Shown piece by piece: positions 2,942-39,900 of a stretch of 64,000 bases of DNA. Source of the DNA: a virus; IMG/VR virus record IMGVR_UViG_3300042463_000877, positions 1 through 64,000 of that record. One strand, written 5' to 3'. Below the pieces are notes generated by a model, which saw only the letters and a program-made list of their open reading frames with translations, was not told the DNA's origin and ran no database searches. Each line of letters begins with the position of its first letter. Within the stretch, counting starts at the first letter, position 1. The position numbers and the translations under genes are program-made.

Positions 2942-2968
2942 ATAAATACTTTGAATTGTTGTATTTAT
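2942..2968. promoter_or_regulatory. Divergent pair of TATTTAT late-type promoter elements
   Basis: The 52-base gap between divergent genes carries TATTTAT on the minus strand (2948-2942) facing the 2927 start, and TATTTAT on the plus strand (2962-2968) facing the ATG at 2980. Both are 11-14 bases from the start codon they serve. The same element recurs ahead of about 20 transcription units in this window. Confidence 0.6.
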
Positions 2969-2979
2969 TAATAAAAAAG

Positions 2980-5924: not shown

Positions 5925-8900
5925 ATGTCAAATTATGTTATTATTACAGATCCAGTAGGTGGATTAACAACAACAGTTAGGAGTGGGCAAACAAATTCTG
6001 CTTCAGCTCTTTATTCTACCGTTTCTGGGGGTAGAGCAAACACGACAAGTGGAAATACCGGATACTCAACAATTGCCGGTGGTAGAGGAAATACGGCAAA
6101 CGGAAGTTATTCAAGTATAAATGGTGGTTACCTTAACCGTTCTAACGGATTACTAAGTAATATTGGTGGTGGATGTAGTAACTTTGCAAATGGTAAATCA
6201 TCGATTGTTAATGGTGGTGCATTTAATACAGCACAATCAGATTATACAATTATTGGTGGTGGTTATTATAACACGGCAATTGGTTTGAAATCTATTGTTC
6301 TTGGTGGAGACAATAACACAGCATGTTGTAGTAGTAGTATTGTTGGTGGGGATAATAATATAGCAATTGGGTGCGACACTTTTATTGGGAATGGTAGATT
6401 AAATAATTTGAACGGGAGCTACTCTTCAATTGTTGGTGGTTTTGGTAATAATCTTAACGGAACATTTGCTAACATAAATGGTGGTTGTGAAAACGTTGCA
6501 AATGGAAAATCAGCAATTGTTGTTGGTGGTGTTTTAAATTCTGCCATGTCAGATTACACAATTGTTGGTGGGGGATACTGCAACACAGCAATAAATTTAA
6601 AATCTAACATTCTTGGTGGTGATAATAACACCGCGATGTCAGGATCAACAATAGTTGGTGGTGATAATAACATTGCAAGAGGTGTAAATTCTTTTGTTGG
6701 GAATGGTCAATTAAATAAAGTTAGTGGGAATTACTCCGCAACTATTGGTGGAAATGGAAATGTACTAACTGGTACAAGGTCGGTTATCCTTGGTGGTGCT
6801 GGCTTAACAGGAACATCAGCTGATACTGTTTATGTACCAAAATTAAATATCGATTCAATTGGTACTACAACATCTGTTAATAATTTAGGAATAGATGCTA
6901 ATGGTAATGTTGTAATTGGTGGTGATAATGATATATTTTTAAGTGCGTCAACATTAGATAATGTTACAGGTGTTTTAACATTAATTAATAGTAATGGTAG
7001 TAACGTGGTTCAAGGTGGATTTGTTACAGGAGACAATTTTGTGACTGGTGGTACATTTAATTATAATGCTGGTGGTCTTACTTTAGAAATGAAAAACGGA
7101 ACAAATGTTTCTATATCTGGTTTAGAAGATAAATATTTTACCGGTGTAACATTTGATACAAATAGTTTTGATTTAACTATTGGAAGAAATGATGGTTTTA
7201 GTGATACAATAAATCTTGGTGTTCTAGCAACTGACTTAGGTTTAACAGGTGGAACATATAACGCAAATACTGGTGTTGTAACATTTATAAACACATCTGG
7301 AAATACAGTACAAATTTCTGGTTTCACAACTGGATACACAGACACATATTTGACTGGTGGTACATTTACTGCCGGCAATTTGACTTTAACAAATACAGAT
7401 GGTTCATCAGTTCTTGTAACTGGGTTTACATCTATCGACACATATGTTACGGGAGGTACATATGATAACTCAACTGGTAGTGCAACATTTGAAAACAACC
7501 AGGGTGGTTCTTTTGTTGTGACTGGTTTTACAACTGGCGCTACAGATTACTTTACAACTGGATTTACATTTGACCAAAGTACTTACGCCTTAACAGTTGA
7601 ACTAAACAACTATAGTGCCTACACGGTTAATTTAGGTATTTTAGCTGGTGATTTAAGAGTAACTGGTGGTACATATGATTTAAACTCTGGTACTGCAACT
7701 TTTACAAATAACTCTGGTGGTACATTTAGTGTTACTGGTTTCTTAACTGGATATACAGATACATATGTTACTGGTGGTTTTTATACTCCATCAACATCAA
7801 CCTTAACAATCCAACAACAAAATGGTACAGTAGATATTTCTGGAATTGAAGATGCTGTAATTGTTGGAGGTAATGGATTTTCTTCTTCAGTAAGGAAAAA
7901 CTCAGGAAATAACGCTAACGGTCAATATTCAACTGTGTTTGGTGTTAATAATAATGCAAATGGATTTGCAAGTACAATTGGTGGTGGTTGTCAAAACCAA
8001 GCAAATAATAATAGTGACGTTGTTGCCGGTGGTTTTGTTAATATTGCTAGTGGTAATTATTCATTTGTTGGTGGTGGTTTTGCTAACAACAACTTTGGAT
8101 ATATGGGTGTTATTAATGGTGGGGCTGTTAACCAATTAAATGGGTCATTCTCAACAATTAATGGTGGTTGTAATAATCAAACATTTAGTAACTACACAGC
8201 TATAGGTGGTGGTAGATCTAACAAAACTTGTAATTTGAGTGATACTGTTGCTGGTGGTTGTTGTAATACTGGTTGTGGTGGAAGCATCGCAATTGGTGGT
8301 GGATTTGGGAATAAAGCATACGGTTTTGCGTCAGTAATTGGTGGTGGATATTGTAATGAAACTTATAATTTCCAATCATCAGTAGGTGGTGGTTTATATA
8401 ACTCAGCAGTTGGGAATAGATCAAATGTAGGTGGTGGTTCATTTAATACATCATTTGGTATAAATAACACAATAAGTGGTGGATATAGAAATACCGCATC
8501 TGGTTATAGATCAACAATTGGTGGTGGTAGATGTAATACTGCTCTTAATTTTGAATCATCAATTCTTGGAGGTCTAAGAAATACTGCGACTGGAAATAAC
8601 TCAGTTATTGCTGGTGGTGTAGAAAACAGAGCTCAAGCAACACAATCTATGATTCTTGGTGGATGTCAAAACGTTGTAACAGGAAATAGGTCAGCTGTAA
8701 TAGGTGGACAAAATATTACTGGTACAACAAATGATACTGTTTATGTTCCACAATTAAATATTCAAACAGTTGGTGCAACAACGCCAGTTTCTACATTAGG
8801 TGTTGATGCGTCTGGTAATGTTGTTTCGGTAGTATCTCAAACAGATTACTTTTTAACTGGATTAACATTTGATAATAGTTCATTTATTTTAACAGCATCG

Positions 8901-10361
8901 GTTAATGATGGAAATGATTTACAAGTAAATTTAGGTGTTTTAGCAACTGACTTAGGTTTAACTGGTGGTACATATGATGCAAATACAGGTGTTGTAACAT
9001 TTGTTAACACATCTGGAAATACAGTACAAATTTCTGGATTTACAACTGGATACACGGACACATATTTGACTGGTGCAACAAAAGTTGGTGATACATTAAC
9101 TTTAACAAATACCGATGGCTCTCAAGTTACGGCAACTGGATTTACAGATTATTTTGTAACAGGAAGTACATTAACATCTGGAAATGATAATACAAATGTA
9201 CAAACATCAACTTTAGAATATAATTTAACACCAAATGGTGGTCCGTTTACAATTGTAACTGAAAACACATACGTTACTGGTGGTACGTATGATAACGTAC
9301 TTTCACAAATTACATTTGATAGAAATGATGGAAATTCATTTAATGTTGATTTAGCAACATTAATTGATAGTGATAAATATTTAACTGGTGGTACATATAA
9401 CCCAACAATAGGTGAATTAGTATTATCACAATCAAATGGTGCTACCGATGTAAGTATTCTTGGGTTCCAAACACAAAACACATTTGTAACTGGTGGGACA
9501 TATTCAAATGGTACCTTAACTCTTGGTCAAAACAATGGTACTAATGTTACTGTACCTGGTTTCCAAAGTAATGATTTCTTTGTTACTGGTGGTACATATA
9601 ATAACGCTAACGGTTTAATCACATTAAATAGACAAAATGGCGTTGCAACTGTAAGTGGATTACCAGCTGGTTTAACATCAATTCCAACTCAAATTGTTGT
9701 TGCGGGTACAGGCTCACTTTCAACTCTTAGAACTGGATCAGCAAACATTGCTAGCGGTCCTTGTTCTGTTGTTTTAGGTAGTACAAATACTGCAGCATCT
9801 ACAGTAGCAGGTATCTTAGGTGGTATTTCAAACTCAATATCTGCAACAGGTTATGCGTCAACAATTGGTGGTGGAGCTTTTAACTGTCTAATCCAATCTT
9901 ATTCAACAATTGGTGGTGGTCAATCTAACTGTGTATTACAGTCTCACTCAAGTATTGTTGGTGGTAGATTAAATACAAACAATTCTTGTTGTAGTACAAT
10001 TGGTGGTGGTGAAAGTAACATAATTGGTACTAATGTTCCTTGGTCAACAATTAAAGGTGGTTGTGGAAACAACATTAGTAATCTTGCCTCTTATTCATCG
10101 GCCGTTGGTAGAGCAAACACAGTTTGTTTAAGTGATTCACACGTTTTAGGATGTAACATTACAACTGATCAATGTTTCACAACTTTTGTAAATAACTTTA
10201 CAGTTAATGGTGGCGGTATTTCATCTCCAAACACTTGTTCAAGAGTTACTTTAAAAAGTTTACCAACCGAAACTGAAGTTACAGCACTTCCAAGTGGTAC
10301 TGTTTATAGGTGTACAACAAGTGCGTCAGGTGGTGGTACTCAACTTTGGGTTAAACTTTAA
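5925..10361 (+). CDS. Giant tail fibre with YadA-like beta-roll repeats
   Basis: 1478 residues. Three blocks of about 14-16-residue repeats of the type GGxxNTAxGxxSxIxGG (roughly residues 24-297, 650-930 and 1275-1420) match the left-handed beta-roll of YadA/trimeric autotransporter heads. Between them are two blocks of about 30-residue repeats (YVTGGTYDNxTGxxTF...VTGF), each following a conserved VYVPxLNI linker. The C-terminus (LPSGTVYRCT...QLWVKL) resembles the tips of the two other fibres. It is probably a trimeric, elongated receptor-binding fibre. Large internal duplications are visible at DNA level. The sequence is rich in Ser, Thr and Asn exposed in loops, which would suit glycosylation by the enzymes encoded at 13.7-21.8 kb. 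It ends in a strong terminator. Confidence 0.9.
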   Translation: MSNYVIITDPVGGLTTTVRSGQTNSASALYSTVSGGRANTTSGNTGYSTIAGGRGNTANGSYSSINGGYLNRSNGLLSNIGGGCSNFANGKSSIVNGGAFNTAQSDYTIIGGGYYNTAIGLKSIVLGGDNNTACCSSSIVGGDNNIAIGCDTFIGNGRLNNLNGSYSSIVGGFGNNLNGTFANINGGCENVANGKSAIVVGGVLNSAMSDYTIVGGGYCNTAINLKSNILGGDNNTAMSGSTIVGGDNNIARGVNSFVGNGQLNKVSGNYSATIGGNGNVLTGTRSVILGGAGLTGTSADTVYVPKLNIDSIGTTTSVNNLGIDANGNVVIGGDNDIFLSASTLDNVTGVLTLINSNGSNVVQGGFVTGDNFVTGGTFNYNAGGLTLEMKNGTNVSISGLEDKYFTGVTFDTNSFDLTIGRNDGFSDTINLGVLATDLGLTGGTYNANTGVVTFINTSGNTVQISGFTTGYTDTYLTGGTFTAGNLTLTNTDGSSVLVTGFTSIDTYVTGGTYDNSTGSATFENNQGGSFVVTGFTTGATDYFTTGFTFDQSTYALTVELNNYSAYTVNLGILAGDLRVTGGTYDLNSGTATFTNNSGGTFSVTGFLTGYTDTYVTGGFYTPSTSTLTIQQQNGTVDISGIEDAVIVGGNGFSSSVRKNSGNNANGQYSTVFGVNNNANGFASTIGGGCQNQANNNSDVVAGGFVNIASGNYSFVGGGFANNNFGYMGVINGGAVNQLNGSFSTINGGCNNQTFSNYTAIGGGRSNKTCNLSDTVAGGCCNTGCGGSIAIGGGFGNKAYGFASVIGGGYCNETYNFQSSVGGGLYNSAVGNRSNVGGGSFNTSFGINNTISGGYRNTASGYRSTIGGGRCNTALNFESSILGGLRNTATGNNSVIAGGVENRAQATQSMILGGCQNVVTGNRSAVIGGQNITGTTNDTVYVPQLNIQTVGATTPVSTLGVDASGNVVSVVSQTDYFLTGLTFDNSSFILTASVNDGNDLQVNLGVLATDLGLTGGTYDANTGVVTFVNTSGNTVQISGFTTGYTDTYLTGATKVGDTLTLTNTDGSQVTATGFTDYFVTGSTLTSGNDNTNVQTSTLEYNLTPNGGPFTIVTENTYVTGGTYDNVLSQITFDRNDGNSFNVDLATLIDSDKYLTGGTYNPTIGELVLSQSNGATDVSILGFQTQNTFVTGGTYSNGTLTLGQNNGTNVTVPGFQSNDFFVTGGTYNNANGLITLNRQNGVATVSGLPAGLTSIPTQIVVAGTGSLSTLRTGSANIASGPCSVVLGSTNTAASTVAGILGGISNSISATGYASTIGGGAFNCLIQSYSTIGGGQSNCVLQSHSSIVGGRLNTNNSCCSTIGGGESNIIGTNVPWSTIKGGCGNNISNLASYSSAVGRANTVCLSDSHVLGCNITTDQCFTTFVNNFTVNGGGISSPNTCSRVTLKSLPTETEVTALPSGTVYRCTTSASGGGTQLWVKL
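7225..7360 (+). repeat. Internal duplication, copy 1 (fibre gene)
   Basis: About 136 bases coding for the TGGTYxANTGVVTF...QISGFTTGYTDTYLTG segment recur at 8941-9075 with only scattered substitutions. This is a within-gene duplication of one strand-repeat unit. Confidence 0.8.
8941..9075 (+). repeat. Internal duplication, copy 2 (fibre gene)
   Basis: Second copy of the 7225-7360 segment, about 1.7 kb downstream in the same reading frame. Long identical stretches include the codons for NTSGNTVQISGFTTGYTDTY. Confidence 0.8.
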
Positions 10362-10422: not shown

Positions 10423-13400
10423 ATGGCTTACGTTATAATTGATGACCCGGTAGGTGGGATAAACTCTACAGTTAGATGTGATAATAATAATGCTGCTAGA
10501 TGTAATTATTCAACAGTATTAGGTGGGTATTCAAACACAGCAGATAAAAACTACGGAACAATAGTTGGTGGTTTTTTTAATACAACAACTGGTTGTATGG
10601 GTGTAATTACTGGTGGTAGATGTAATAAATCAACTGGGAATAATGGAACATTTGGTTCAATTACTGGTGGTTATTGCAATACAAACACAACAAATTCATC
10701 ATCAACATTTATTGGTGGCGGAGAATTAAATACAATAAATGGCGACCTTTCAACAATTGTTGGTGGTTGTAAAAATACAATTTTAGATAGCTGTACATTT
10801 ATTGGTGGTGGTTACTTAAATGTTGCATCACAAAATTATGCTTCTGTTGTTGCTGGTTGTAACAATACTTCTTCTGGAAAATATTCGGCAATTGGTGGTG
10901 GAGAATCAAACACTGCTTCTGATTATAACACAACTGTTGGTGGTGGTTTTGAAAATGTTGCATTAAATGCTTGCTCAACCGTTGGTGGTGGAGCACAGAA
11001 TAGTGCTATTGGAGATTTTGCAATTGTTGCTGGTGGTAGATTTAACACAGCAGCCGACACAACAGCTTTTGTTGGTGGGGGTAACTCAAACATCGCAAAT
11101 TGTGATTTTACAGTTGTTGGTGGTGGAGAATACAATACGGTTGATTCTTGTGGTAGTGCAATTCTTGGTGGGTGCTGTAACACATCAGACGCAAACTTTT
11201 CTATTATTGTTGGTGGATGTAATAACGCAAACTTAGGATCTGGTTCATTTGTAGGTGGTGGATGTGGAAACACAACGGTATCAAACATTTCTGTTGTTGC
11301 AGGTGGTTCACAAAATAAAAACTACGGAACATACGCATCAATATTAGGTGGTTTATCAAATGAAACTTATTCTGATGGTACAACAATTGCCGGTGGACAA
11401 TTTAATACAGTAATAGGATTTAATAGTAATATTGCCGGTGGATATAGTAATACAGTTTCTGGTTATTGTTCTGCAATTGCCGGTGGTGCTAATAACATAG
11501 TTATTGGTGATTGCTCAATGGTATTTTCAAATAACTCTACTTTACAAGCAGATAGGAGTGTTATTTTAGGTGGACAAAATATTTCTGGAACAACAGATGA
11601 TACTGTTTATGTACCAGGATTAAATATAGGTATTATTAGTACTGGTACGTCAATAAATGATTTGGGTATTGATGCTCAAGGTAATGTTGTTGTTGGTGGA
11701 GGAATTGGTTCTGGACCTTATGAAATTGGTTCTGGGGTAGATTCAACACAAAGAATTGGTACATTAAATGACGCTCTTGGTAACTTTTCACTTGTTAGTG
11801 GAGGTTTTCAAAATACATCGTATACTAACTTTTCAACAATAAGTGGTGGTTATGGAAATAAAGCAGGGATAAAAAATACTGTTAGTAATTACTACAATAC
11901 AGTATATACCGGAGGAACCTTTAATGGTATATACGGTGGTATTACACCAACATCAACTGTTTCTGGATATGGTACGGGTGCGGTATTTAATTTTACTTTT
12001 AATACAGGTTCTTTTTCATCTCTTAATATTGTATCTGGTGGTTCTAATTATGTTAATGGTGATACATTATTTTTTGATGGAACTAATTTTAGTGGTGTAT
12101 CAGGTACTGATGATGTTACATTACAAATAAACACAAATTCAGGACCTTTTTCATTTGTTGGTGGTGGTTGTAATAATGCTTCATTGGGTGAATACTCGAC
12201 TGTGAGCGGTGGATATAGTAATTTTGCAACAGGTTATGCGTCAACAATTGCCGGAGGTTGTGGAAATACAGCATCAGCTTTTTACTCAACTGTAAGTGGT
12301 GGATATTGTAACACATCAAGTGGAATTCGTTCAAATGTAAGTGGTGGTGATTGTAACACAGCAAGTGGAGATATTTCAACTGTAAGTGGTGGTGGTTGTA
12401 ATAATGCAAGTGGGATTAGTTCAACAGTAAGTGGTGGAATTCGTAATGAATCAAGTAATACATTTTCAACCGTAAGTGGTGGCTATAAAAACACAGCAAG
12501 TAATCCATTTTCATTTATTGGTGGTGGAGAATTTAATACAACAAGTGGGAATTATTCAACAGTAAGTGGTGGTTATCAAAACACAGCACGTACTATTGGT
12601 TCATCAATTGGTGGTGGTAAAGTAAACATTGCAGGTATAAACGGAACTGTAAGTAATTATTATAATTTAAATACAAGTGGATCAACAACAACTGGTATTT
12701 TTCCGGGAGTATCTTCTTCATTTACAACTAGTGTTAACGGTTTTGGCTCTTTGTTTAACTTTAACTTGACCGCAGGTGTTGTTAACAGCATTACCATTTC
12801 AGCGGCTGGTCAAAACTATATTGATGGTGATTTTTTATTATTTGACGGAACATTGTTTGGTGGAACTTCTGGTGTTGATGATATATCATTCCTTGTATCA
12901 ACAACTGATTATAATTTTGCAACCGTAGGTGGTGGTTGTGGTAACAGAGCAAGTAATACATTTTCAACCGTAAGTGGTGGAGTTTCAAACACAACAAGTG
13001 GTTGTTATTCAACCGTAAGTGGGGGGCGATGTAACACTGCAATTGGTTATCACTCAAATATAAATGGTGGACGACAAAATACAGCAAGTGGTAATAATTC
13101 AACCGTAAGTGGTGGTTATTTTAACTTATCAAGTGGAGATATTTCAACTGTAGGTGGTGGTTTATATAACACATCAAGTGGAGTTTATTCAACCGTAAGT
13201 GGTGGACGATGTAACACATCAATCGGAGGTTATTCTGTAATTGGCGGCGGACAACAAAACACATCAAGTGGAACTAATTCAACCGTAAGTGGTGGACGAT
13301 GTAACACATCAAGTGGAACTAATTCAACCGTAAGTGGTGGTTATCAAAACACTATAACAACACAATATTCTGGTATTCTTGGTGGATCCGGAAATACAGT

Positions 13401-13572
13401 TTCACACAATTGCTCATTTATTGTTGGTTATGGAATTACAACAAGTTGTCCAAATACAACATATGTAAACTGTTTAAGTATTATTGATTTACCAACTAGT
13501 TCTGCTGGTTTACCTTCAAAATCCGTTTACTACTGTCCAACAGATTTAAATAGAATATATTTTGTTCCTTAA
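10423..13572 (+). CDS. Second giant beta-roll tail fibre
   Basis: 1049 residues. The N-terminus (MAYVIIDDPVGGINSTVR) parallels that of the preceding fibre (MSNYVIITDPVGGLTTTVR), so the two are paralogues with the same attachment end. Nearly the whole protein is GGxxNTASGxxSTVSGG beta-roll repeat, interrupted by one VYVPGLNI linker and by two copies of a non-repeat insert of about 90 residues (nt about 11868-12150 and 12640-12912). The inserts have the signature YVNGDTLFFDG...DDVTLQI. The C-terminus (LPTSSAGLPSKSVYYC) matches the tip of the 23598 fibre (IPTSSVGLAPGTVW). A role in host binding is likely. No TATTTAT element is seen in the short gap after the 10367 terminator, so its promoter is unclear. 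Confidence 0.9.
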   Translation: MAYVIIDDPVGGINSTVRCDNNNAARCNYSTVLGGYSNTADKNYGTIVGGFFNTTTGCMGVITGGRCNKSTGNNGTFGSITGGYCNTNTTNSSSTFIGGGELNTINGDLSTIVGGCKNTILDSCTFIGGGYLNVASQNYASVVAGCNNTSSGKYSAIGGGESNTASDYNTTVGGGFENVALNACSTVGGGAQNSAIGDFAIVAGGRFNTAADTTAFVGGGNSNIANCDFTVVGGGEYNTVDSCGSAILGGCCNTSDANFSIIVGGCNNANLGSGSFVGGGCGNTTVSNISVVAGGSQNKNYGTYASILGGLSNETYSDGTTIAGGQFNTVIGFNSNIAGGYSNTVSGYCSAIAGGANNIVIGDCSMVFSNNSTLQADRSVILGGQNISGTTDDTVYVPGLNIGIISTGTSINDLGIDAQGNVVVGGGIGSGPYEIGSGVDSTQRIGTLNDALGNFSLVSGGFQNTSYTNFSTISGGYGNKAGIKNTVSNYYNTVYTGGTFNGIYGGITPTSTVSGYGTGAVFNFTFNTGSFSSLNIVSGGSNYVNGDTLFFDGTNFSGVSGTDDVTLQINTNSGPFSFVGGGCNNASLGEYSTVSGGYSNFATGYASTIAGGCGNTASAFYSTVSGGYCNTSSGIRSNVSGGDCNTASGDISTVSGGGCNNASGISSTVSGGIRNESSNTFSTVSGGYKNTASNPFSFIGGGEFNTTSGNYSTVSGGYQNTARTIGSSIGGGKVNIAGINGTVSNYYNLNTSGSTTTGIFPGVSSSFTTSVNGFGSLFNFNLTAGVVNSITISAAGQNYIDGDFLLFDGTLFGGTSGVDDISFLVSTTDYNFATVGGGCGNRASNTFSTVSGGVSNTTSGCYSTVSGGRCNTAIGYHSNINGGRQNTASGNNSTVSGGYFNLSSGDISTVGGGLYNTSSGVYSTVSGGRCNTSIGGYSVIGGGQQNTSSGTNSTVSGGRCNTSSGTNSTVSGGYQNTITTQYSGILGGSGNTVSHNCSFIVGYGITTSCPNTTYVNCLSIIDLPTSSAGLPSKSVYYCPTDLNRIYFVP
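12181..13350 (+). repeat. Tandem beta-roll coding repeats
   Basis: About 42-48-base coding units with recurring blocks such as TCAACCGTAAGTGGTGG and AACACATCAAGTGG. Units are nearly identical to those in the third fibre; for example, 12351-12394 equals 26003-26046 over 44 bases. The insert at about 12640-12912 interrupts the array. Confidence 0.85.
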
Positions 13573-13657: not shown

Positions 13658-14401
13658 ATGTTTGTAACTGTATGTAATAAAGATTATCTTATAGGATTTG
13701 AGGTAATGTTAAAATCGTTAATAGATAATAACCCAAGAGTTGTTAGTGAAAAATTACCATTTGTAATCATCACAAATGATTTAACACCAGAAGATTTAGT
13801 CGCCTCAAGAAGAATGTACAATAATATACACATAAAAAGATTTGACACCGAAAAATATTCTGAAATAGAAAAACTAAAAGAAAAACAAATGTCTTTTGGT
13901 GATTATACTAAATATGAAATTTTTTCATTAACTGAATTTAACAAAATTATATTTTTAGATTCAGATGTTGTTATTTTAGGAAACATTGATTATCTAATTG
14001 ATTTTGATGGTGATATTGGTGGTGTTAGAGATTTATATATTGACCAATACAACACAGGTGTTCTTGTTATCTCAAAAAAATATTTATCTGAAAAAATAAC
14101 AGATGATTTAATACATCTTACAACAATATATGGGATTACAGAACATCTGGACCAAGATATTATTAATAATTATTTTTATGATGAAATAACTGAAATACCA
14201 GTATCATATAATTACTTAAAAACATATTCAAAAGAAATATTCAAAAATACAGGACTACCAAAACATATTAAAATTTTACACTACATTGTAAAAAAACCTT
14301 GGCAACAAAAACCATTGGTGTATTTGGAAGAAGGTACAATCTGGCAAGAAAGATATTGGTTTGAATATTACTCTAAACTTTTAAAATATAAAAATGGTTA
14401 A
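13658..14401 (+). CDS. GT8-family glycosyltransferase
   Basis: 247 residues with the GT-A fold of family GT8 (glycogenin/LgtC type), which transfers a sugar from a nucleotide-sugar. The start MFVTVCNKDYLIGFEVMLKS is the nucleotide-binding strand. NKIIFLDSDVVILGNI holds the metal-binding DxD (D101-S-D103), QYNTGVLVIS is the NTG acceptor-side motif, LDQD (164-167) is the usual second acidic motif, and IKILHYIVKKPW carries the C-terminal metal-binding His (H208). It is the first gene of the island after the terminator at 13596. The sequence TTGAGG before the ATG is one of the few Shine-Dalgarno-like sites here. It overlaps the next gene by 8 bases. The acceptor is unknown; fibre protein or host surface glycan are both possible. 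Confidence 0.85.
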   Translation: MFVTVCNKDYLIGFEVMLKSLIDNNPRVVSEKLPFVIITNDLTPEDLVASRRMYNNIHIKRFDTEKYSEIEKLKEKQMSFGDYTKYEIFSLTEFNKIIFLDSDVVILGNIDYLIDFDGDIGGVRDLYIDQYNTGVLVISKKYLSEKITDDLIHLTTIYGITEHLDQDIINNYFYDEITEIPVSYNYLKTYSKEIFKNTGLPKHIKILHYIVKKPWQQKPLVYLEEGTIWQERYWFEYYSKLLKYKNG

Positions 14402-15311
14402 AAGACATTACGACAATTCTGAGTTGATGAACTATAAAGAAAGAGAGCCAAACTTAGAAACCTTTGAAGGAAAAGAATTATTATTACACTTTGACTCATT
14501 TTGTTTAGGTGATACAATTTGTTTTTCATCTTTGATGGATGCTTTTATGGATTATCACAAACCAAAGTACGTTTGGGTTACAACTTTTTTTCCACACCTA
14601 TTAAAATCAAATAGACCAGACTATGAGTTTATTAACGCAAATGAAAGTGGTTTTTTAGAAATTGATAAACTAGTTGATGTTGGTTATGATAAAAATAATA
14701 TGGCACACACTTTAGGTGGTATGTTTTATGCTGCTAAAGATACAATGCGATTACCGCAAGAAACAAAACCAGGTAAATGTCCAGTAATTCCAAAACTAAG
14801 AACAATAGACCCAAATAAAATTACTATGGGTCCAGAAACAATTAAAGAAATTTCACAATGGAAATATAATGGGAATGAGGGTTGGCAAACAATTGTAAAT
14901 TCATTACATAATGTAGGTTACAACGTTTATAACATTTCTTATGAAAATACAATGAATTTAGAAAATGTTATTGGTTTTCACGGTCACGATGATTTAAATG
15001 TTGCAATTGACCATATTGTTAGTTCAAGGTTCTTTGTTGGTTTATCTTCAGGTCTTTCTTGGCTTGCTTGGGCCTATGACGTACCAGTTGTTATGATTTC
15101 AAATTTTACAAAAAGTCAAAACGAATTTGATTGTTTTAGAGTCACAAACCCTTATGTTTGTAATGGATGTTTTAATATGTTTCCAAATATAAAAACTAAA
15201 TGTCCAATATTTTTAGGAACAGAAAGAGAAAACGAATGTCACACAAAAATAAAACCAAAAATGGTAATAGATAAGATTAACGAAGCAATTATCTTTACTA
15301 ACAAAAATTAA
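14394..15311 (+). CDS. Autotransporter heptosyltransferase-like GT (four-Cys finger)
   Basis: 305 residues. It resembles the bacterial autotransporter heptosyltransferase family (TibC/AAH type; strand-loop-strand O-heptosyltransferases). The C-terminal GT-B half reads FFVGLSSGLSWLAWAYDVPV, then VMISNFT and a cysteine finger C256-x2-C259-x10-C270-x11-C282. In TibC-type enzymes a CxxC...C...C set binds iron and is a family hallmark. Those enzymes glycosylate serines in the repeat loops of AIDA-I/TibA autotransporters in the cytoplasm. Here the gene directly follows two phage fibres made of adhesin-like repeats, which are plausible substrates. It overlaps the GT8 gene by 8 bases. The family call rests on motifs and the finger; the donor sugar cannot be read from sequence. 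Confidence 0.75.
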   Translation: MVKRHYDNSELMNYKEREPNLETFEGKELLLHFDSFCLGDTICFSSLMDAFMDYHKPKYVWVTTFFPHLLKSNRPDYEFINANESGFLEIDKLVDVGYDKNNMAHTLGGMFYAAKDTMRLPQETKPGKCPVIPKLRTIDPNKITMGPETIKEISQWKYNGNEGWQTIVNSLHNVGYNVYNISYENTMNLENVIGFHGHDDLNVAIDHIVSSRFFVGLSSGLSWLAWAYDVPVVMISNFTKSQNEFDCFRVTNPYVCNGCFNMFPNIKTKCPIFLGTERENECHTKIKPKMVIDKINEAIIFTNKN

Positions 15312-15327
15312 AAATTATAATCTTATT

Positions 15328-16212
15328 ATGGAAAAAAAATATAGTATATTTCATTTAGAAGGTGGTTTAGGAAAACACGTTCTATCAACTGCTGTTGCAA
15401 AATGTATAAAAAACAATCACCCAGATAGGGAATTAATTATTGTCTGTGCTTACCCAGAAATATTTTTAAATTTAGATTTTATTGATAGAGTATATAGAAT
15501 TGGTATGACACCATATTTTTATGATGATTACATTAAAGATAAAGATAGTTTAATTTTTAAACACGAACCTTATTTTACAACAGACCACATCCAAAAAAAG
15601 TTACCATTAATTATGAATTGGTGTAAACTTTTTGGTTTAGAATATAACGGTGAAATGCCATCACTTTCATTTAATTTAAGACAACAACAAGTTGCATTTA
15701 ATAAATGGAAAAGAGAAAAACCTGTAATGGTCATTCAAACAAACGGTGGTCCATTACAAGAACAGCCATATCCATATTCTTGGACAAGGGATATTCCTTT
15801 TGATGTTGCTCAAAAAATTGTTGACCACTTTTCACAATATTATCACATAATTCAAATTTGTAGAGACCAAACAAATGTTTTACAAAATGTTGAGGCTCAC
15901 GTAGAACCTATGTCTAATATGGAATTATTTTCATTATTAGCTTATGCTCAAAAAAGATTATTAATTGATTCTTGTTTACAACATGCGGCAGCTGCTATGG
16001 GTCTACCATCAACCATATTGTGGATTGGTACATCACCAAAAGTATTTGGTTATCCATTACACACAAACATTATAGCAGAACTACCAACAACAGTTAAGTT
16101 ACCAGATAGTTACTTATTTGATTACAACTTTAATGGTACAATACACGAATGTCCTTTATTTGATACAAACATCTTTAATATAAACGAAATAATAGAAACA
16201 CTAAAAAATTAA
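15328..16212 (+). CDS. GT9-like (heptosyltransferase-fold) glycosyltransferase
   Basis: 294 residues. The start IFHLEGGLGKHVLSTAVAKC is the GT-B N-terminal loop of GT9-like proteins. VMVIQTNGG opens the second Rossmann domain, and FSLLAYAQKRLLIDSCLQHA with AAAMGLPSTILWIGT is the nucleotide-sugar site with the 'D..x.H.A...G.P....' pattern typical of GT9. The last 40 residues are less conserved. It sits between the heptosyltransferase-like gene and the sulfotransferase (16- and 3-base gaps), so it is co-transcribed. It probably adds a further sugar to the same glycan as its neighbours. Donor and acceptor are unknown. Confidence 0.75.
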   Translation: MEKKYSIFHLEGGLGKHVLSTAVAKCIKNNHPDRELIIVCAYPEIFLNLDFIDRVYRIGMTPYFYDDYIKDKDSLIFKHEPYFTTDHIQKKLPLIMNWCKLFGLEYNGEMPSLSFNLRQQQVAFNKWKREKPVMVIQTNGGPLQEQPYPYSWTRDIPFDVAQKIVDHFSQYYHIIQICRDQTNVLQNVEAHVEPMSNMELFSLLAYAQKRLLIDSCLQHAAAAMGLPSTILWIGTSPKVFGYPLHTNIIAELPTTVKLPDSYLFDYNFNGTIHECPLFDTNIFNINEIIETLKN

Positions 16213-16215
16213 ATT

Positions 16216-17034
16216 ATGGTAGAAAAAATATTTTTCCAAAGTTCATTACCAAGAGCTGGATCAACATTACTTCAAAATGTTATGGGACAAAATCCAGAGT
16301 TTTACGTAACACCAACATCTGGTGTTTTAGAATTAGTTTATGCTGCAAGAGCAAACTACACTTCATCACCTGAGTTTAAAGCACAAGATTCAGAATTAAT
16401 GAAACAAGGTTTTCTAAACTTTTGTAATCAAGGTATGTTAGGTTTTTTTAATGGTGTAACAGATAAACCATATGTTTTAGATAAAAGTAGAGGTTGGGGT
16501 ATTCATTATGGGTTTTTAAATTCTTTTTATCCAGAACCAAAGATTATTTGTATGGTAAGAGACTTACGTGGAATCTTTGCCTCAATGGAAAAGAATTTTA
16601 GAAAGAGTCAACATATGGATTCTGGTGTTGTTAATCACGCGCAAATGCAAGGAACTACAACAGAAAAAAGAATTGATATTTGGTCACAATCACAACCAGT
16701 TGGTTTGGCTGTCGAAAGACTTTATCAAATCTTCAAAGAAGGTATTAATCATAAAATGTTATTTGTTAAATTCGAAGACTTCACTTCAAATCCAAAAAAA
16801 GAAATGGAAAGAATTTATAAATATCTTGAGTTACCATACTTTGAACACGACTTTGATAATGTTACACAAATAACACAAGAAGATGATTCTGTTTATGGAA
16901 TTTATGGTGACCATAATATTAAATCTAAAATTGAACCATTAAAATTAGATTATAAAGAAGTTCTTGGAACACCAGCTTGTAACTGGATAAAACAAAAACA
17001 TCAATGGTTTTACGACCAATTCGGTTATTTTTGA
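16216..17034 (+). CDS. PAPS-dependent sulfotransferase
   Basis: 272 residues. Sulfotransferases move the sulfuryl group of PAPS to a hydroxyl or amine. The 5'-phosphosulfate loop is at the N-terminus (FFQSSLPRAGSTLLQNVM, residues 6-23), with the usual R-x-G-[ST]-T order. The 3'-phosphate site is KIICMVRDLRGIFASM (109-124), with Arg115 and Ser123 in the expected places. KFEDFTSNPKKEMERIYKYL is the characteristic 'yEdl..dP...+..i..fL' segment. It is followed at once by an APS kinase that makes PAPS. It is likely to sulfate a glycan or tyrosine-like acceptor made or exposed by the adjoining glycosyltransferases. Confidence 0.88.
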   Translation: MVEKIFFQSSLPRAGSTLLQNVMGQNPEFYVTPTSGVLELVYAARANYTSSPEFKAQDSELMKQGFLNFCNQGMLGFFNGVTDKPYVLDKSRGWGIHYGFLNSFYPEPKIICMVRDLRGIFASMEKNFRKSQHMDSGVVNHAQMQGTTTEKRIDIWSQSQPVGLAVERLYQIFKEGINHKMLFVKFEDFTSNPKKEMERIYKYLELPYFEHDFDNVTQITQEDDSVYGIYGDHNIKSKIEPLKLDYKEVLGTPACNWIKQKHQWFYDQFGYF

Positions 17035-17036
17035 TT

Positions 17037-17492
17037 ATGAAAGAAAAAAAGATTTATTGGTTTACAGGACAACCAGGAGCTGGTAAAACTGTATTAGCGA
17101 CAATGTTAAAAACAATTTTAGAAAAAGAATATGGAAATAAAGTATTCCATATTGACGGTGATGAATTAAGAAGACTTTTCAATAACCAAAAATACGGTAG
17201 AGAAGGTAGAGAAGAAAACATCAAAAGAGCTCAAGACATTGCAAAATTTTTATTAGTACAAGGATACGATGTAATTGTAAGTCTTGTTGCACCTTACAAA
17301 GAATTAAGAGAAAGTTTTAAATATGATTTACAAAATTTATTAGTTGAGTTTTATGTTCATACAACAGACATTAGAGGCAGAGAACATTTCCATACAGATG
17401 AGTATGAACAACCATCAGAAAATTTTGTTGATATTAATACAACAGGTGTTAATCCACAAGAATCATTAAACGAAATAATTAAACACATATGA
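17037..17492 (+). CDS. cysC: Adenylylsulfate (APS) kinase
   Basis: 151 residues from the ATG at 17037; an upstream in-frame ATG (17004) lies inside the sulfotransferase gene. The enzyme phosphorylates APS with ATP to give PAPS. Visible motifs are the Walker A GQPGAGKT (11-18), VFHIDGDELRR (37-46), the GREENIKRAQDIAKFL helix, a VSLVAPYKELR loop (81-91) at the place of the family's 'SFISPY' loop, and FVDINTTG (130-137) near the end. Length is slightly short but complete for a single-domain kinase. It overlaps the next gene by four bases (ATGA). Directly downstream of the sulfotransferase, it would supply that enzyme's donor. Confidence 0.88.
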   Translation: MKEKKIYWFTGQPGAGKTVLATMLKTILEKEYGNKVFHIDGDELRRLFNNQKYGREGREENIKRAQDIAKFLLVQGYDVIVSLVAPYKELRESFKYDLQNLLVEFYVHTTDIRGREHFHTDEYEQPSENFVDINTTGVNPQESLNEIIKHI

Positions 17493-17944
17493 GTTGGGAA
17501 AAGAAAAACCACGGAGGAAATCCAACAAATAACGAAAGTAAAAAGTATGCAGTTTTTGTAGGTCGTTATCAACCTTATCATTTTGGTCACATTGAGTTAA
17601 TCCAACAAAAATTAAATGAAGGAGTACCAGTTTTAATTATGATTAGAGATATTGAACCTGATGAAAAAAATCCTTTTACAACAGAACAAACAGTTTCTAT
17701 GATTGAGAAGTACCATAAATCAAAAGGTGATGATGTTAAAGTTATCATTATTCCAGATATTGAATCTGTTAATTTTGGTCGCGGTGTTGGATATGAAGTA
17801 AATGAATTTACACCACCAAAAGAAATTGGTGGGATTTCTGCAACTGGTATTAGAAATTGTATAAAAAATAAAGATGATTACTGGAAAAAATTAGTTGACC
17901 CAATCATACAAGATGATGTTTTATTGATATTGGAAAAAAATTAA
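17489..17944 (+). CDS. HIGH-superfamily nucleotidyltransferase
   Basis: 151 residues. VGRYQPYHFGHIELIQ (24-39) is the nucleotide-binding HxGH motif, and GGISATGIR (114-122) is the 'ISxTxxR' motif of the cytidylyl-/adenylyltransferase superfamily. KNPFTTEQTVSMI and VKVIIIPDIESVNFGRGVGY fit the NMN/nicotinamide- or pantetheine-type members. ATP sulfurylase belongs to the same superfamily, so the location between APS kinase and DUF2061 makes an APS-forming role conceivable. However, the protein is far shorter than known ATP sulfurylases. A sugar-nucleotide or NAD-related role is equally possible. Reaction undecided. Confidence 0.75.
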   Translation: MSWEKKNHGGNPTNNESKKYAVFVGRYQPYHFGHIELIQQKLNEGVPVLIMIRDIEPDEKNPFTTEQTVSMIEKYHKSKGDDVKVIIIPDIESVNFGRGVGYEVNEFTPPKEIGGISATGIRNCIKNKDDYWKKLVDPIIQDDVLLILEKN

Positions 17945-18180: not shown

Positions 18181-18699
18181 ATGAGTCAGATAATTACAAT
18201 ACAAAGTGTAAATTTTAGCGGTGAACCTGCTCAAATATTATTCAAACCAGATAATAGTACTATTACAATAAATATTGGTTCTGTTATACTTCCATACACT
18301 TTTCAACCAGATTTATTAACACCCCAACAAGAAATTTATGGGACATATACAATATCAACAGATGGTGGTAATTGTACAAACTTTTTAAATGTACCAAGGC
18401 CAACACCTACACCAACTCCAACAAATACACCTACTAGAACACCAACTCCAACACCTACTAGAACACCAACGCAGACTCCTACTAACACACCAACACCAAC
18501 GCAGACTCCTACACCTACAAATACTCCGACGGCAACAACAACTGCAACACCAACACCTACACCAACTCCTACTTGGGACTTGTGTGTTACTCCGTTGCCT
18601 CCAAATTTTACACCGTCAAATACACCGACTAATACACCTACACCGTCAAATACACCGACTAATACACCTACACCAACATTAAGTCCTATATGTAGTTAA
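18181..18699 (+). CDS. Thr/Pro mucin-like protein
   Basis: 172 residues. Residues 1-70 form a small beta-rich domain of unknown family ([20 protein letters not shown] onward). From about residue 72 to the end the chain is almost only Thr and Pro with Asn, Ser, Arg or Gln ([12 protein letters not shown] type), apart from a short break [12 protein letters not shown]. Such tracts are extended and are classic O-glycosylation targets. The DNA shows a perfect 30-base tandem duplication (18611-18670). A GT60-type peptide GlcNAc-transferase lies 240 bases downstream. It may be a virion surface decoration protein or fibre linker. Similar, shorter Thr/Pro runs occur in the 2980 and 22654 proteins. Confidence 0.8.
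18611..18670 (+). repeat. Perfect 30-bp tandem duplication
   Basis: 18611-18640 and 18641-18670 are identical, each coding ten residues of the Thr/Pro tract. The repeat unit keeps the frame, so copy-number change would alter tract length without breaking the protein. Confidence 0.9.
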
Positions 18700-18935: not shown

Positions 18936-20180
18936 ATGACAATATTTGTACAAATAGCCTCTTATCGAGACCCCCAGCTTATACCAACAATTAAAGATAT
19001 GTTGAACAAAGCAAAATACCCAGAAAATTTAAGATTGGGGATTGCAAGACAATATCACCCAGAAGATGGTTTTGATGACCTTTCAGAATATGAGAGTGAT
19101 GATAGATTTAGAATTTTAGATATTGTCTACACAGCGTCCACTGGTGTGTGTTGGGCAAGACATCAAGTACAACAATTATATAGTGGTGAAACATACACGT
19201 TACAATTAGATTCTCATATGCGTTTTGAAAAAAATTGGGATGAGACATTAATTAATATGTTAAAAGAATTACAAGAAGATGGTTATAAAAAACCACTTCT
19301 TACCGGTTATGTTTCATCTTTTGATCCAGACAACGACCCACAAGGAAGAGTTACAGAACCCTGGAGAATGGTATTTGATAGATTTACACCAGAAGGTGTT
19401 GTTTTCTTTTTACCAGAAGTAATACCAGGTTGGCAAGAATTAAAAAAACCAATCCCAGCAAGATTTTATTCGGCACATTTCTGTTTTACATTAGGTGAAT
19501 TTTCAATAGAAGTTCAACACGACCCAGAATATTATTTTCACGGAGAAGAAATATCAATTGCTGTTAGAGCTTATACTCACGGATATGATTTATTCCATCC
19601 ACATAAAATTGTAATTTATCACGAGTACACAAGAAAAGGTAGAACAAAACAGTGGGATGATGATAGCGTATGGTATAAGAAAAATGAAAGTTCACATAGT
19701 AAAAATAGAAAAGTATTAGGTGTTGACGGTGAAAAATTTAAAGGAAAATTAAAATATGGTTTTGGAAAAGAAAGAACAATACGTGATTACGAAAAATACG
19801 CTGGTGTTCTTTTTGAAAAAAGATCCGTACAACAATATACAATAGATAAAAACTATCCACCAAATCCTTATGATTATAAAAATGATAAAGAATGGAAAGA
19901 AAGTTTTTTAAGAATATTCAAACATTGTATAGATATTCCATTAGATAAAATACCAGAAGACGATTATGATTTTTTAGTTGTTGCATTTCATAACGATAAA
20001 GATGAAACAATATATCGTATGGACGCACAAGAAGAAGAAATCAAAAGAATAAAAACAGACGCCGACGGTTATGGAAAAATATGGAGGGAGTTTAACGCAA
20101 AAGAAAAACCGAAATATTGGGTTGTTTGGCCACATTCAAAATCAAAAGGTTGGTGTGATAGATTAATTGGTGATTTATGA
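18936..20180 (+). CDS. GT60-type polypeptide GlcNAc-transferase
   Basis: 414 residues. It matches the GlcNAc glycosyltransferase family (CAZy GT60, Pfam GlcNAc): IFVQIASYRDPQLIPTIKDM at the start, TGVCWARHQVQQLYSGE, then the metal site TLQLDSHMRFEKNWD (D92-S-H94). Further signatures are ARFYSAHFCFTLGEFS, YYFHGEEISIAVRAYTHGYD and LFHPHKIVIYHEYTR. Characterised relatives (Dictyostelium, trypanosomes) attach alpha-GlcNAc to hydroxyproline or threonine of proteins, including mucin-like Thr/Pro tracts. The last 110 residues are an extra domain of unknown type. It lies just behind the phage's own Thr/Pro protein. It overlaps the next gene by four bases. Family confident; protein substrate inferred. 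Confidence 0.88.
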   Translation: MTIFVQIASYRDPQLIPTIKDMLNKAKYPENLRLGIARQYHPEDGFDDLSEYESDDRFRILDIVYTASTGVCWARHQVQQLYSGETYTLQLDSHMRFEKNWDETLINMLKELQEDGYKKPLLTGYVSSFDPDNDPQGRVTEPWRMVFDRFTPEGVVFFLPEVIPGWQELKKPIPARFYSAHFCFTLGEFSIEVQHDPEYYFHGEEISIAVRAYTHGYDLFHPHKIVIYHEYTRKGRTKQWDDDSVWYKKNESSHSKNRKVLGVDGEKFKGKLKYGFGKERTIRDYEKYAGVLFEKRSVQQYTIDKNYPPNPYDYKNDKEWKESFLRIFKHCIDIPLDKIPEDDYDFLVVAFHNDKDETIYRMDAQEEEIKRIKTDADGYGKIWREFNAKEKPKYWVVWPHSKSKGWCDRLIGDL

Positions 20181-21838
20181 TAACACTTGTTACAGGTCTT
20201 TGGGATATTGGAAGGGGTAATCTTAATGAAGGATGGAATAGATCTTTTGATTATTATTTAGAAAAATTTAAAGAACTTTTAGAAATAGATTGTAATTTAA
20301 TTATTTTTGGTGATAACCACTTAGAAGAATTTGTATTCAAATATAGAAACCCAACTAATACAAAATTTATCAATAGGGATTTATCTTGGTTTAGAAATAA
20401 CGAATACTTTGATAAAATCCAAAAAATAAGAACAAATGAAAATTGGTATAATATTTCTGGTTGGTTAAAAGAATCAACACAAGCAAGATTAGAATATTAC
20501 AATCCACTTGTAATGTCCAAAATGTTTTTACTACACGACGCTTCTATTTTGGATCCTTTTAATTCCGAAAAACTTTACTGGATAGACGCTGGATTAACTA
20601 ACACGGTTAATCTTGGGTATTTTACTCGTGATAATGTATTAGATAAAATAGAAAGTTTATTTGATAAATTTATGTTTGTTGTTTTTCCTTATGAAGCGGA
20701 AAACGAAGTGCACGGATTTGATTATAAAAAAATGTGTGACTACGCAAAAACAAAAACAGAGTTTGTCTCAAGAGGTGGATTTTTTGGTGGAACAAAACAA
20801 AAAATTGCTGACTTAAATGTTTTATATTACCAATTACTTATTGATACATTAAATAAAAATTTAATGGGTACCGAAGAGAGTATTTTTACAATTATGACTT
20901 ATCTTTATCCATCAATGATTGATTATTGTGAAATAGAATCAAATGGTTTGGTATATAAATTTTTTGAAGACGTAAAAAATAATACGGTTGTAATTAAAAA
21001 TAAGGGAAAAAAAGTTGTAACAAAATATAAAGGAGATATTGGTTTATATGTAATCACGTTTAACTCACCAAAACAATTTGAAACTTTAATAAAATCAATG
21101 TTGGGTTATGACCCAAATTTTATACATAAAACAAAAAAATATTTACTTGATAACTCAACAGATCTTTCAACAACACCAAGGTATAAAGAGTTATGTGATG
21201 AATATGGTTTTGAACACATTAAGAAGAATAATTTGGGTATTTGTGGTGGAAGACAATTTGTTGCCGAACATTTTGCTAACACGGATTTACAATATATGTG
21301 GTGGTCAGAGGATGATATGTTTTTCCAAAATAAACCAGATGAAACTTGTAAAAACGGATTTAATAGATACACACCAAATTTATTTAACAAGTGTTTTGAA
21401 ATAATGGATAAAGAAGATTTTGAATTTCTCAAAATAAATTATAGTGAATTTTACGGTGACAACGGGACTTGTTGGCCCTGGTATAACCTACCACAAGAAA
21501 AAAGAAATGAGTATTTTCCTGAAAAACCCAATTTACCAACCAATGGATTAGAACCAAATGTACCAAAAACCAAGTTTAATAATATAATGTCACATAAAGG
21601 ATTACCATATGTTGATGGTGAAATATACTATTGTAATTGGACACATATTATAAGTCAAGAAGGTAATAAAAAAATGTTTTTGGATACAAAATGGACACAC
21701 CCTTTTGAAAATACTTGGATGAGTCATCATTACCAATTAACAAAGAAAAATCAATTAAGGGGTGGTTTGTTATTATTAACACCAGTTGAGCATGAACGCT
21801 TTGATCATTATTCTAAAGAATTAAGAAAAGAAAGTTAA
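20177..21838 (+). CDS. HtrL/YibB-like plus GT-A two-domain glycosyltransferase
   Basis: 553 residues. Residues 1 to about 250 match the HtrL/YibB family: LVTGLWDIGRGNLNEGWNRS, NLIIFGDNHL, YYNPLVMSKMFLLHDA and LYWIDAGLTNTV. That family is found in surface-polysaccharide loci and is thought to be a glycosyltransferase. From about 285 a second GT-A-like domain begins (GLYVITFNSPKQFETLIKSM, LLDNSTD, then YMWWSEDDMFFQ near 375, where the acidic cluster would be the metal site). It ends around HPFENTWMSHHY. It is likely bifunctional, adding two sugars. It is last in the GT run and converges with the HNH gene, sharing four bases at the stops. Confidence 0.8.
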   Translation: MITLVTGLWDIGRGNLNEGWNRSFDYYLEKFKELLEIDCNLIIFGDNHLEEFVFKYRNPTNTKFINRDLSWFRNNEYFDKIQKIRTNENWYNISGWLKESTQARLEYYNPLVMSKMFLLHDASILDPFNSEKLYWIDAGLTNTVNLGYFTRDNVLDKIESLFDKFMFVVFPYEAENEVHGFDYKKMCDYAKTKTEFVSRGGFFGGTKQKIADLNVLYYQLLIDTLNKNLMGTEESIFTIMTYLYPSMIDYCEIESNGLVYKFFEDVKNNTVVIKNKGKKVVTKYKGDIGLYVITFNSPKQFETLIKSMLGYDPNFIHKTKKYLLDNSTDLSTTPRYKELCDEYGFEHIKKNNLGICGGRQFVAEHFANTDLQYMWWSEDDMFFQNKPDETCKNGFNRYTPNLFNKCFEIMDKEDFEFLKINYSEFYGDNGTCWPWYNLPQEKRNEYFPEKPNLPTNGLEPNVPKTKFNNIMSHKGLPYVDGEIYYCNWTHIISQEGNKKMFLDTKWTHPFENTWMSHHYQLTKKNQLRGGLLLLTPVEHERFDHYSKELRKES

Positions 21839-36966: not shown

Positions 36967-39900
36967 ATGGCTACTAATAGTAAAGTTTTTGTATCACCAG
37001 GAGTTTATACATCAGAAGTTGATTTGAGTTTTGTTGCTCAAAGCGTTGGTGTTACAACTCTAGGAATTGCCGGAGAAACAATTAAAGGTCCAGCATTTGA
37101 ACCTATCTTTGTTAGAAACTACGATGAATTCCAACAGTATTTTGGTGGGACATCACCAGAAAAATTTGTAAACACACAGATTCCTAAATATGAATCTGCT
37201 TATATTGCTAAGGCATATTTACAACAATCAAATCAATTATTTGTCACCAGAATTTTAGGATTATCTGGTTATGATGCTGGACCTTCTTGGTCTATATTAA
37301 CTAAAGCAAACTTAGACCCAAAAACTTTAGATTATTGGTGTTTAAGTGCTGGTACCGTTTTGTGTGAACCGGCTTGCGTTATTAAAAAAGAATTACCATT
37401 TACAGTAAAATTTAGCGCTTGTACATTAAATACTGGTTTTGTTTCATACACAACAAGTTTTCCAAGCGACATTCAAAACATCTTAACTTCTTCTTATGAA
37501 GAATTTGATGGAGATTTATCAACACTACAAACACAAATTAATGCTTTAATTTCTGATGTAATAAATAGTAGTAACCCAACTGCAGCACAGAATAATTTTA
37601 TTAGATATTTTGGTTCTGTTCCACAAGCAGATTATAATAGTTTATTTGCTGGTGGTTACACAGCTGAAACAAACGTATTTGCGGTTGACAATTTACAGCA
37701 AACAAATGTTTATACAAGTTTAAGTAACCCACTTAATAATCCTTTTTTATTAACAACAACTACAACAACTGGGAATTTTGGTCCTTATAATTTAGTTGTT
37801 AGTGTTGCACCAGGTTCAATTGTTGTACAGTTTTGTTTATCTTCAACATTACCAGTACCAAATGATGTAACATTATCCTTTGATGCAACAATAGATGTAA
37901 CAAGTGGATTACCAATATTAATTAGTGATTCTGTAACAATCGAAGCTGGTGAAGTTAGTGGTTGTACTATTGTTAGTTTCCCTAATGATGATTATCAAAG
38001 ATTAGCTGGTACAGGGTCTTTAAGTAATTTAGTTTCGAGTGACCCTACTGAATTAGACCCTAATGACGTTACAATTACACTTCAGTTTGTTTGTGACCCA
38101 ATTTTACCAGTAACCACTACAACAACAGTACCACCAATACCAAATGTATGTTTTACAGGTTCTGTAGTTGGTATGATTTATTATTATACTGGTTCATCAT
38201 TTACTGAATACGATGATTTAGTTGTTACAACTTTACGCTCAAGAGGTATTTCACCATATTCTGACGGAACAAATCCAATTTATGAAGTTACTGGTGTAAC
38301 TGATGTAACAATTGATATGACTGGTCAATATAGTGGTGTTCTTAAAAATCCATTCTTACCATTTAGTGTTGGAGTCACTAACTATGATGGTAAAGAATTT
38401 GATTTTGAAGTTTCACTATCGAATAGTGACGCTAAAAATATTAACAAAGTATTTGGTCGCGGTAATTTTGAAAAACCTAGAACTCAAGTTCCATTAATGG
38501 TTGAAGAATCATATTTAAATTTACTTAACTACGCTTGGAGTAAAGGATATATTAGAGGTTTAAATGCCGAACTAGTTGTTAGTGAAGGTGCTCAAAGTAA
38601 TGATTTAAACAGTATTGGATACTATTTAGAAAGATTCCAATCACCAAGTACACCTTGGGTTGTATCAGAATTAAGAGGTACAAAAGTTTATAACTTATTT
38701 AAACTATATACAATTTCTGATGGTAATAGTGCTAACACAGAAGTTAAAATATCATTTACTGACTTATCATTTAATAACGAAACGTTTACTGTTTTAATTA
38801 GAGATTATTTTGATACGGATGCTAATCCAGTTGTGTTAGAAAAATTCACAAACTGTTCTATGAATCCACAAGAAAACAATTTTATTGCTAAAAAAATTGG
38901 TACATTAGATGGTGAATATGAATTGAAATCTAGATACGTTCTTGTTGAGATTAACGAAGATGCTCCGATAGATGCAATTCCTTGTGGTTTTGAAGGTTAT
39001 ACATTTAGAGAGTATCCAGGCGGAAAATCACCATTCCCAGTTTATAAAACTAAATATTTCACACCAGGTGAATTAGTGTTTAACCCTCCTTTTGGTTTAT
39101 CTAGTGGTGGTGACGATGCTTTCACAAGTCCTGGAGATAATGTTAGAAGAACATATTTAGGTTTAGGTTCTTACTGGGGTTATGATACTGACTTTTTCCA
39201 ATATAAAGGAAAAAGAAAACCATTTAACTTATGTACTGGAGAACCATTTGATTGGGATTTCAAAACCAAAGGTTTCCATATGGACCAACTTGCTAGTGGA
39301 ATTACAATTTCAGGAGCATTTGCTTCAAGCGGTACTTCGGCTTTTGAAGTTGGTGATGCCACATTCTCTTCAGAACCTACAGACCCAACTGATCCTTACT
39401 ACAGATTAAACGCTAGAAAATTCACAGTCATGGTTTATGGTGGATTTGACGGTTGGGATATCTATAGAGAATACAGAACAAATGCCGATAAATATACTTT
39501 AGGTAGAGCAGGATTCTTAAATGGTGCTTGTTCATCTTTAAGATATCCAAAAGGTAAAGGAAATGGATTGTTTAAACAAATTGCAATCGGTGATGGAAGT
39601 GTTGAATATGGTAATACAGATTATTATGCTTACTTATTAGGTATTAGAACATTTGCCAACCCAGAAGCCGTAAATATCAATATATTAACAACACCAGGTA
39701 TTGATTTGTATAATAATAATAATCTTGTTGAAGCAACAATTGATATGGTTGAAAATGAAAGAGCAGATTCACTTTATATTACAACAATGCCAGATTACCA
39801 AATGTTTGTTGCAACAACAACTGAAGGTGATAACTTTATCTATCCACAAGAAGCTGTTGATTTGTTAGAAGAAACAGGAATTGATTCTAACTATACCGCA

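Follow-up and report, generated by a model that had tools for sequence, protein, structure and literature searches.

Beta-roll fibres and the genes behind them

The window, i.e., the whole stretch of 64,000 nucleotides of viral DNA which was analysed (IMG/VR record IMGVR_UViG_3300042463_000877), encodes large repeat fibres and, behind the second of them, a row of closely spaced enzyme genes. The features are:

5925–10361, + strand: beta-roll fibre 1, about 34 repeats (LbR_Ice_bind, weak, in three stretches)
10423–13572, + strand: beta-roll fibre 2 with about 45 repeats, probably the substrate (UspA1 3pr7, E 1.9e-32; LbR_Ice_bind, 7.7e-8)
13658–14401, + strand: GT8 family glycosyltransferase (Pfam Glyco_transf_8, 2e-25)
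14394–15311, + strand: TibC/AAH-like (BAHT-type) GT-B glycosyltransferase without N-terminal barrel (TIGR04414, PDB match to TibC, AF2/Foldseek, residue census)
15328–16212, + strand: second, divergent GT9-like glycosyltransferase (Pfam Glyco_transf_9, E 4e-4, 20.2 bits, below cut-off)
16216–17034, + strand: PAPS-dependent sulfotransferase (Sulfotransfer_3, 1.4e-19)
17037–17492, + strand: APS kinase-like protein, PAPS supply (Pfam APS_kinase, 3.6e-19)
17489–17944, + strand: HxGH-superfamily nucleotidyltransferase, NMNAT-like (CTP_transf_like, 4.7e-7; NCBIfam PRK01153, 2.5e-13; PDB NMNAT, 6e-7)
23598–26507, + strand: beta-roll fibre 3, farther downstream, about 29 repeats (LbR_Ice_bind, 4.6e-4)

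The fibre repeats have a period of 15 residues in which Tyr recurs at positions 7 and 15. Among PDB sequences, fibre 2 matches, besides the UspA1 head structure 3pr7, 3ntn (E 5e-6) and an ice-recrystallization protein; its Pfam match to LbR_Ice_bind lies above the cut-off of that family. In NCBIfam no family, autotransporter repeats included, was matched by the fibres at E values up to 1. The beta-roll assignment rests on sequence because a Foldseek search of PDB with the model of a monomeric fibre fragment returned no significant match. On this basis the fibres are predicted to be of the UspA1/YadA-like left-handed beta-roll adhesin type, i.e., that of trimeric adhesin heads. The earlier note had described the two genes upstream of 14394 as fibres of strand-loop-strand repeats. 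Large adhesin-like repeat fibres they are; AIDA-type strand-loop-strand repeats, however, are ruled out in view of the UspA1 match and the 15-residue left-handed beta-roll units. These units are shared with the heads of the trimeric autotransporter adhesins UspA1 and YadA, yet in the window they are part of phage structural genes, and they belong to an adhesin class other than that of the known BAHT substrates. Probably the fibres are the structures with which the phage grips its host. Upstream of them, at 2956–5844, lies a large structural-type protein with a C-terminal papain-like peptidase domain (phrog_16701, E 4e-55); a relative in locus L011 stops ahead of the peptidase part.

An overlap of 8 bases (ATGGTTAA) joins the GT8 gene to the TibC-like gene, and this overlap is conserved. 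In PDB the GT8 protein matches glycogenin and the Skp1 alpha-galactosyltransferase (E 3e-11). In the sulfotransferase the 5'-PSB motif PRxGST and the 3'-PB residues R115 and S123 are invariant in 11 diverse phage members. The APS kinase-like protein also matches adenylyl-sulfate kinase in NCBIfam (7e-20, below cut-offs); its ORF was listed from 17004, and relatives suggest the start at 17037. The small NMNAT-like nucleotidyltransferase travels with the APS kinase and the sulfotransferase; that it takes part in APS synthesis, perhaps as an unusual ATP sulfurylase, is only a guess.

In all 12 close relatives the triplet of GT8, TibC-like and GT9-like genes is located directly behind a beta-roll fibre. 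Sulfotransferase, APS kinase and nucleotidyltransferase usually follow downstream of the triplet and are absent in the group L008–L012. TibC-like enzyme, sulfotransferase and beta-roll fibres also occur together in the high-GC phages L024 and L028 (GC 0.61), whose enzymes are 48% identical. The earlier note had considered a lone enzyme; five genes absent from it, i.e., those for sulfotransferase, APS kinase, nucleotidyltransferase, GT8 and GT9-like enzyme, turn it into a member of a cassette whose link to this type of fibre is much wider.

The TibC-like enzyme

The ORF at 14394–15311, for which an autotransporter heptosyltransferase-like enzyme had been claimed, is real, and its coordinates were exact (305 aa). 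It is kept in 12 close relatives at 62–90% identity and is under purifying selection (dN/dS 0.09–0.12); hence a chance ORF is ruled out. In NCBIfam the sole strong match is TIGR04414, hepto_Aah_TibC (E 2.9e-34, residues 24–297), with 118.6 bits and thus below its cut-off of 200 bits. TibC is the single PDB match in a phmmer search (E 1e-14). An AlphaFold (AF2) model calculated with 37 sequences has a pLDDT of 90.4 and a pTM of 0.89. When this model was submitted to Foldseek, TibC was on top (4rap/4rb4, E 3e-18, TM up to 0.80), followed by WaaF/WaaC-type GT9 enzymes (E about 1e-7, 9e-8). Because the E-value of TibC is better by some ten orders of magnitude, the nearest structure is one with an iron finger and not a glycosyltransferase lacking it. 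Sequence and model alike point to a TibC/AAH-like, BAHT-type glycosyltransferase.

For a residue census 198 BAHT-type domains were aligned, among them 18 members of a subfamily to which the window's enzyme (P0001) belongs, 60 other viral domains and 119 bacterial relatives; the roles of the TibC residues were taken from PMC4358343. The catalytic Asp, Asp-110 in TibC, is D40 in P0001 and is kept in 18/18 subfamily members. Equally invariant in all 18 are the four finger cysteines; Cys 256, 259, 270 and 282 of P0001 align with Cys 339, 342, 358 and 370 of TibC, which there have an iron role (PMC4358343), and metal binding is predicted. The GT-B core and finger which had been recognised earlier are upheld by this alignment as well as by TIGR04414 and the PDB match. 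The finger itself is shorter, with 12 residues in the stretch C259–C270 compared to 13–19 in relatives. Trp-305 of TibC corresponds to W223, invariant in the subfamily.

A different picture emerges at the donor site. P0001 has I150, S154 and A204 in place of three of the four TibC donor contacts, Thr-226, Lys-230 and Arg-286, respectively. Lys-230, which in TibC binds the beta-phosphate (PMC4358343), is conserved in 60/60 other viral and 119/119 bacterial domains, whereas the 18 subfamily members uniformly have Ser or Ala. At the position of Arg-286, the contact to adenine (PMC4358343), 115 of 118 bacterial sequences carry Arg and 39 of 60 other viral ones Thr, compared to Ala, Ser or Val in every subfamily member. 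The Thr-226 position is Leu, Ile or Thr in the subfamily. Two other residues, Glu-148 and Lys-151, do not vary within the subfamily and are candidates for a substitute role in donor binding. Further, the N-terminal barrel is absent in all 18 members, with 40–78 residues ahead of the catalytic Asp compared to a bacterial median of 148; deletion of this beta-barrel abolishes the activity of TibC on TibA (PMC4358343). By sequence length the thumb region, W164–G216, has 53 residues, i.e., 8 fewer than the bacterial median of 61. The subfamily is a single clade (support 100/100) which a long stem (1.67) separates from every other BAHT sequence in the sample.

Evidently, the enzyme looks like a BAHT enzyme in sequence and fold, yet fails several tests by which the family is defined. 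With TibC/AAH (BAHT; PMC4358343) it shares the GT-B core, the catalytic Asp, Trp-305, the four finger cysteines and the position next to solenoid adhesin-like proteins. It differs in that it is phage-borne, has no N-terminal barrel, a shorter thumb region and a shorter finger, has lost the Lys-230 and Arg-286 contacts and, in P0001, that of Thr-226, has a UspA1/YadA-like beta-roll partner, and falls into a separate clade. Classification as a plain BAHT enzyme was discarded, since features which define the family, i.e., barrel, donor residues and the TIGR04414 cut-off, are missed. As the donor contacts are replaced and the barrel is absent, heptose is unproven. Of the designation heptosyltransferase the BAHT-like GT-B enzyme remains, and its heptose part is weakened, also by the other adhesin class of the fibres. 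With donor residues lost, a different donor or acceptor might be used.

BAHT-type domains as such are common in phages, with at least 565 matches in IMG/VR. In loci L014, L015 and L029–L091 they are mostly C-terminal in long multi-domain proteins; 46 of the 60 other viral domains have more than 400 residues ahead of the catalytic Asp, and some are situated near collagen-like GTSGSSG fibres.

Association of the cassette with beta-roll fibres

IMG/VR was searched with beta-roll repeats alone. An alignment of repeat units as query gave 75 loci (single-protein fibre queries gave few), which together with 3 from an earlier fibre search make up 78 fibre loci; 119 viral loci picked for other BAHT domains served for comparison. 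A sulfotransferase is present within about 10 kb in 51/78 fibre loci compared to 12/119 (Fisher P 4e-16), and when whole contigs are considered, 22 of the 24 sulfotransferases are at most 10 kb from the fibre anchor with 4.7 expected (P 9e-15); both P values presuppose independence and, as related phages share layout by descent, come out too small. Counted by distinct contig, since a few loci share one, the sulfotransferase is found in 49 of 74. The corresponding counts are 40/78 and 11/119 for the GT9-like gene, 29/78 and 13/119 for the APS kinase, and 27/78 and 11/119 for the nucleotidyltransferase. The median distance between sulfotransferase and fibre in whole contigs is 3.7 kb. The sulfotransferases fall into 33 clusters at 90% identity and 6 at 60%, and the link spans phages with GC contents of 0.30–0.61. 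A BAHT-type match occurs in just 7 of the 78 fibre-selected loci. Since most beta-roll loci are devoid of it, the TibC-like gene is an add-on and not the core of the fibre cassette. A counter-case is a contig of 180,758 bp (L179/L286), where some 66 kb separate the TibC-like gene from the beta-roll fibre with its cassette.

Similar cassettes near such fibres in many unrelated phages suggest fibre decoration. In its general form we regard this, at slightly less than an even chance, as a dedicated cassette of GT9-like enzyme, sulfotransferase, APS kinase and nucleotidyltransferase with which many unrelated phages would equip their own UspA1/YadA-like fibres with sulfated glycans, GT8 and BAHT-type enzyme having been added in the window's lineage. 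For 14394–15311 itself the best explanation, to which we give an even chance, is a stand-alone, diverged BAHT-type O-glycosyltransferase which performs one step of a cassette decorating the phage's own beta-roll fibres. Gene identities, the fold, the conservation of catalytic residues and the close clustering with this type of fibre in many phages are observed; the fibre as substrate, the sugar, the acceptor of sulfate, the benefit and the following likely order of steps are inferred. The TibC-like enzyme would attach a first sugar, not necessarily heptose, to Ser (or Thr) within the 15-residue units; Ser of solenoid adhesins is a known BAHT glycosylation target (PMC4358343). GT8 and the GT9-like enzyme would lengthen the glycan, and the sulfotransferase would cap it with sulfate from PAPS, part of which the phage APS kinase would provide. 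The benefit may lie in tuning of receptor binding or in protection of the fibre.

Instead, the enzymes may alter the host surface, LPS or capsule, and thereby block superinfection or change the receptor, with fibre proximity reflecting nothing but a shared host-recognition region. Phage glycosyltransferases which modify the host surface are well known, as is also stated in PMC12619734, and polysaccharides can be substrates for the products of the GT9-like and sulfotransferase genes. However, none of the matched families is lipid-carrier-dependent or membrane-anchored, BAHT enzymes target proteins, and the association is with one fibre fold across the whole GC range at a short distance. We consider a host-surface function unlikely.

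Even less likely, in our judgment the least probable of the alternatives, is that the TibC-like enzyme acts on another neighbour, e.g., the Pro/Thr-rich protein at 18181–18699, and leaves the fibres unmodified. A Pro/Thr-rich protein, followed by a PF11397 GlcNAc-transferase, is indeed found downstream in most close relatives. Yet in L017 and L176 the triplet is kept and in L024 and L028 the beta-roll fibres are present, and in these four a homologue of the Pro/Thr-rich protein was not detected.

If fibre decoration is true, phages post-translationally decorate, and probably sulfate, their host-finding fibres as bacteria do their adhesins. This would add a layer of receptor-binding tuning which is unreadable from the fibre sequence alone, and would extend BAHT-type chemistry to a barrel-less form with different donor contacts.

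The presumed sulfate acceptor and known phage systems

The sulfate may be placed on glycan or on protein. The sulfotransferase profile matches protein-tyrosine sulfotransferases in PDB (9e-13), its closest relatives there, and with the recurrent Tyr at repeat positions 7 and 15 this fits a fibre which is sulfated on tyrosine, the sugars being a separate modification. Loci L244, L246, L309 and L320 would agree, as they have beta-roll and sulfotransferase with no cassette glycosyltransferase detected. Yet an alignment did not reveal the EETR active-site segment of protein-tyrosine sulfotransferases in the window's enzyme; because GEETR is aligned to TPTSG, this active-site region is not conserved. 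Moreover, the GT9-like gene is usually directly 5' of the sulfotransferase gene, which therefore suggests a sulfated glycan. Tyrosine sulfation appears improbable to us, somewhat more so than a host-surface function, and we favour a sulfated glycan on the fibre.

The window's sulfotransferase is nearly absent in isolated phages. Among 50,697 phage records it had 10 matches, all below 60% identity, from Synechococcus phages (26–29%) and marine single-cell records. The GT9-like gene had one match, Marine virus AG-345-L05 (57%), the TibC-like gene four distant ones, and GT8 and the repeat segment used had no match in these records. The sulfotransferases of the marine phages S-SKS1, S-SRM01 and S-SCSM1 (Synechococcus) and of OM43 phages (PMC10580990) are of the same broad family, Sulfotransfer_3, yet just 26–30% identical to that of the window, and in the respective regions of S-SKS1, S-SRM01 and S-SCSM1 no cassette like the window's is annotated. 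The function of phage sulfotransferases has been called unclear (PMC10580990); fibre decoration, if true, would suggest a testable one. A literature search in which few subscription papers were covered yielded no paper tying a phage sulfotransferase to fibres, and an earlier description may exist. The virions of mycobacteriophages are reported to be glycosylated by the phage's own glycosyltransferases (Freeman et al. 2023, as cited in PMC12619734). Decoration of virion proteins by phage-encoded glycosyltransferases is thus the common trait, which for the window we infer from the genes. In mycobacteriophages, however, capsid and tail tube subunits are modified, and neither a BAHT-type enzyme nor a sulfotransferase nor a beta-roll fibre is mentioned in the passage on them in PMC12619734.

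As to the host, the tail sheath is nearest to those of a Microcystis phage and Flavobacterium phages, the polymerase is nearest to Salinibacter phages, and psbA was not found in the window. The tail sheath (36967–40506) is unusually large with 1179 aa and has a long N-terminal part beyond the sheath match. Downstream of the cassette the Pro/Thr-repeat protein (18181–18699) precedes the PF11397 GlcNAc-transferase (18936–20180, E 1e-70), possibly a second protein-glycosylation set. PF11397 is the family of the Skp1 hydroxyproline GlcNAc-transferase, and the GT8 at 13658 resembles the Skp1 alpha-galactosyltransferase. A two-part protein with an HtrL_YibB domain (20177–21838, E 5e-21) adjoins the GlcNAc-transferase in many relatives.
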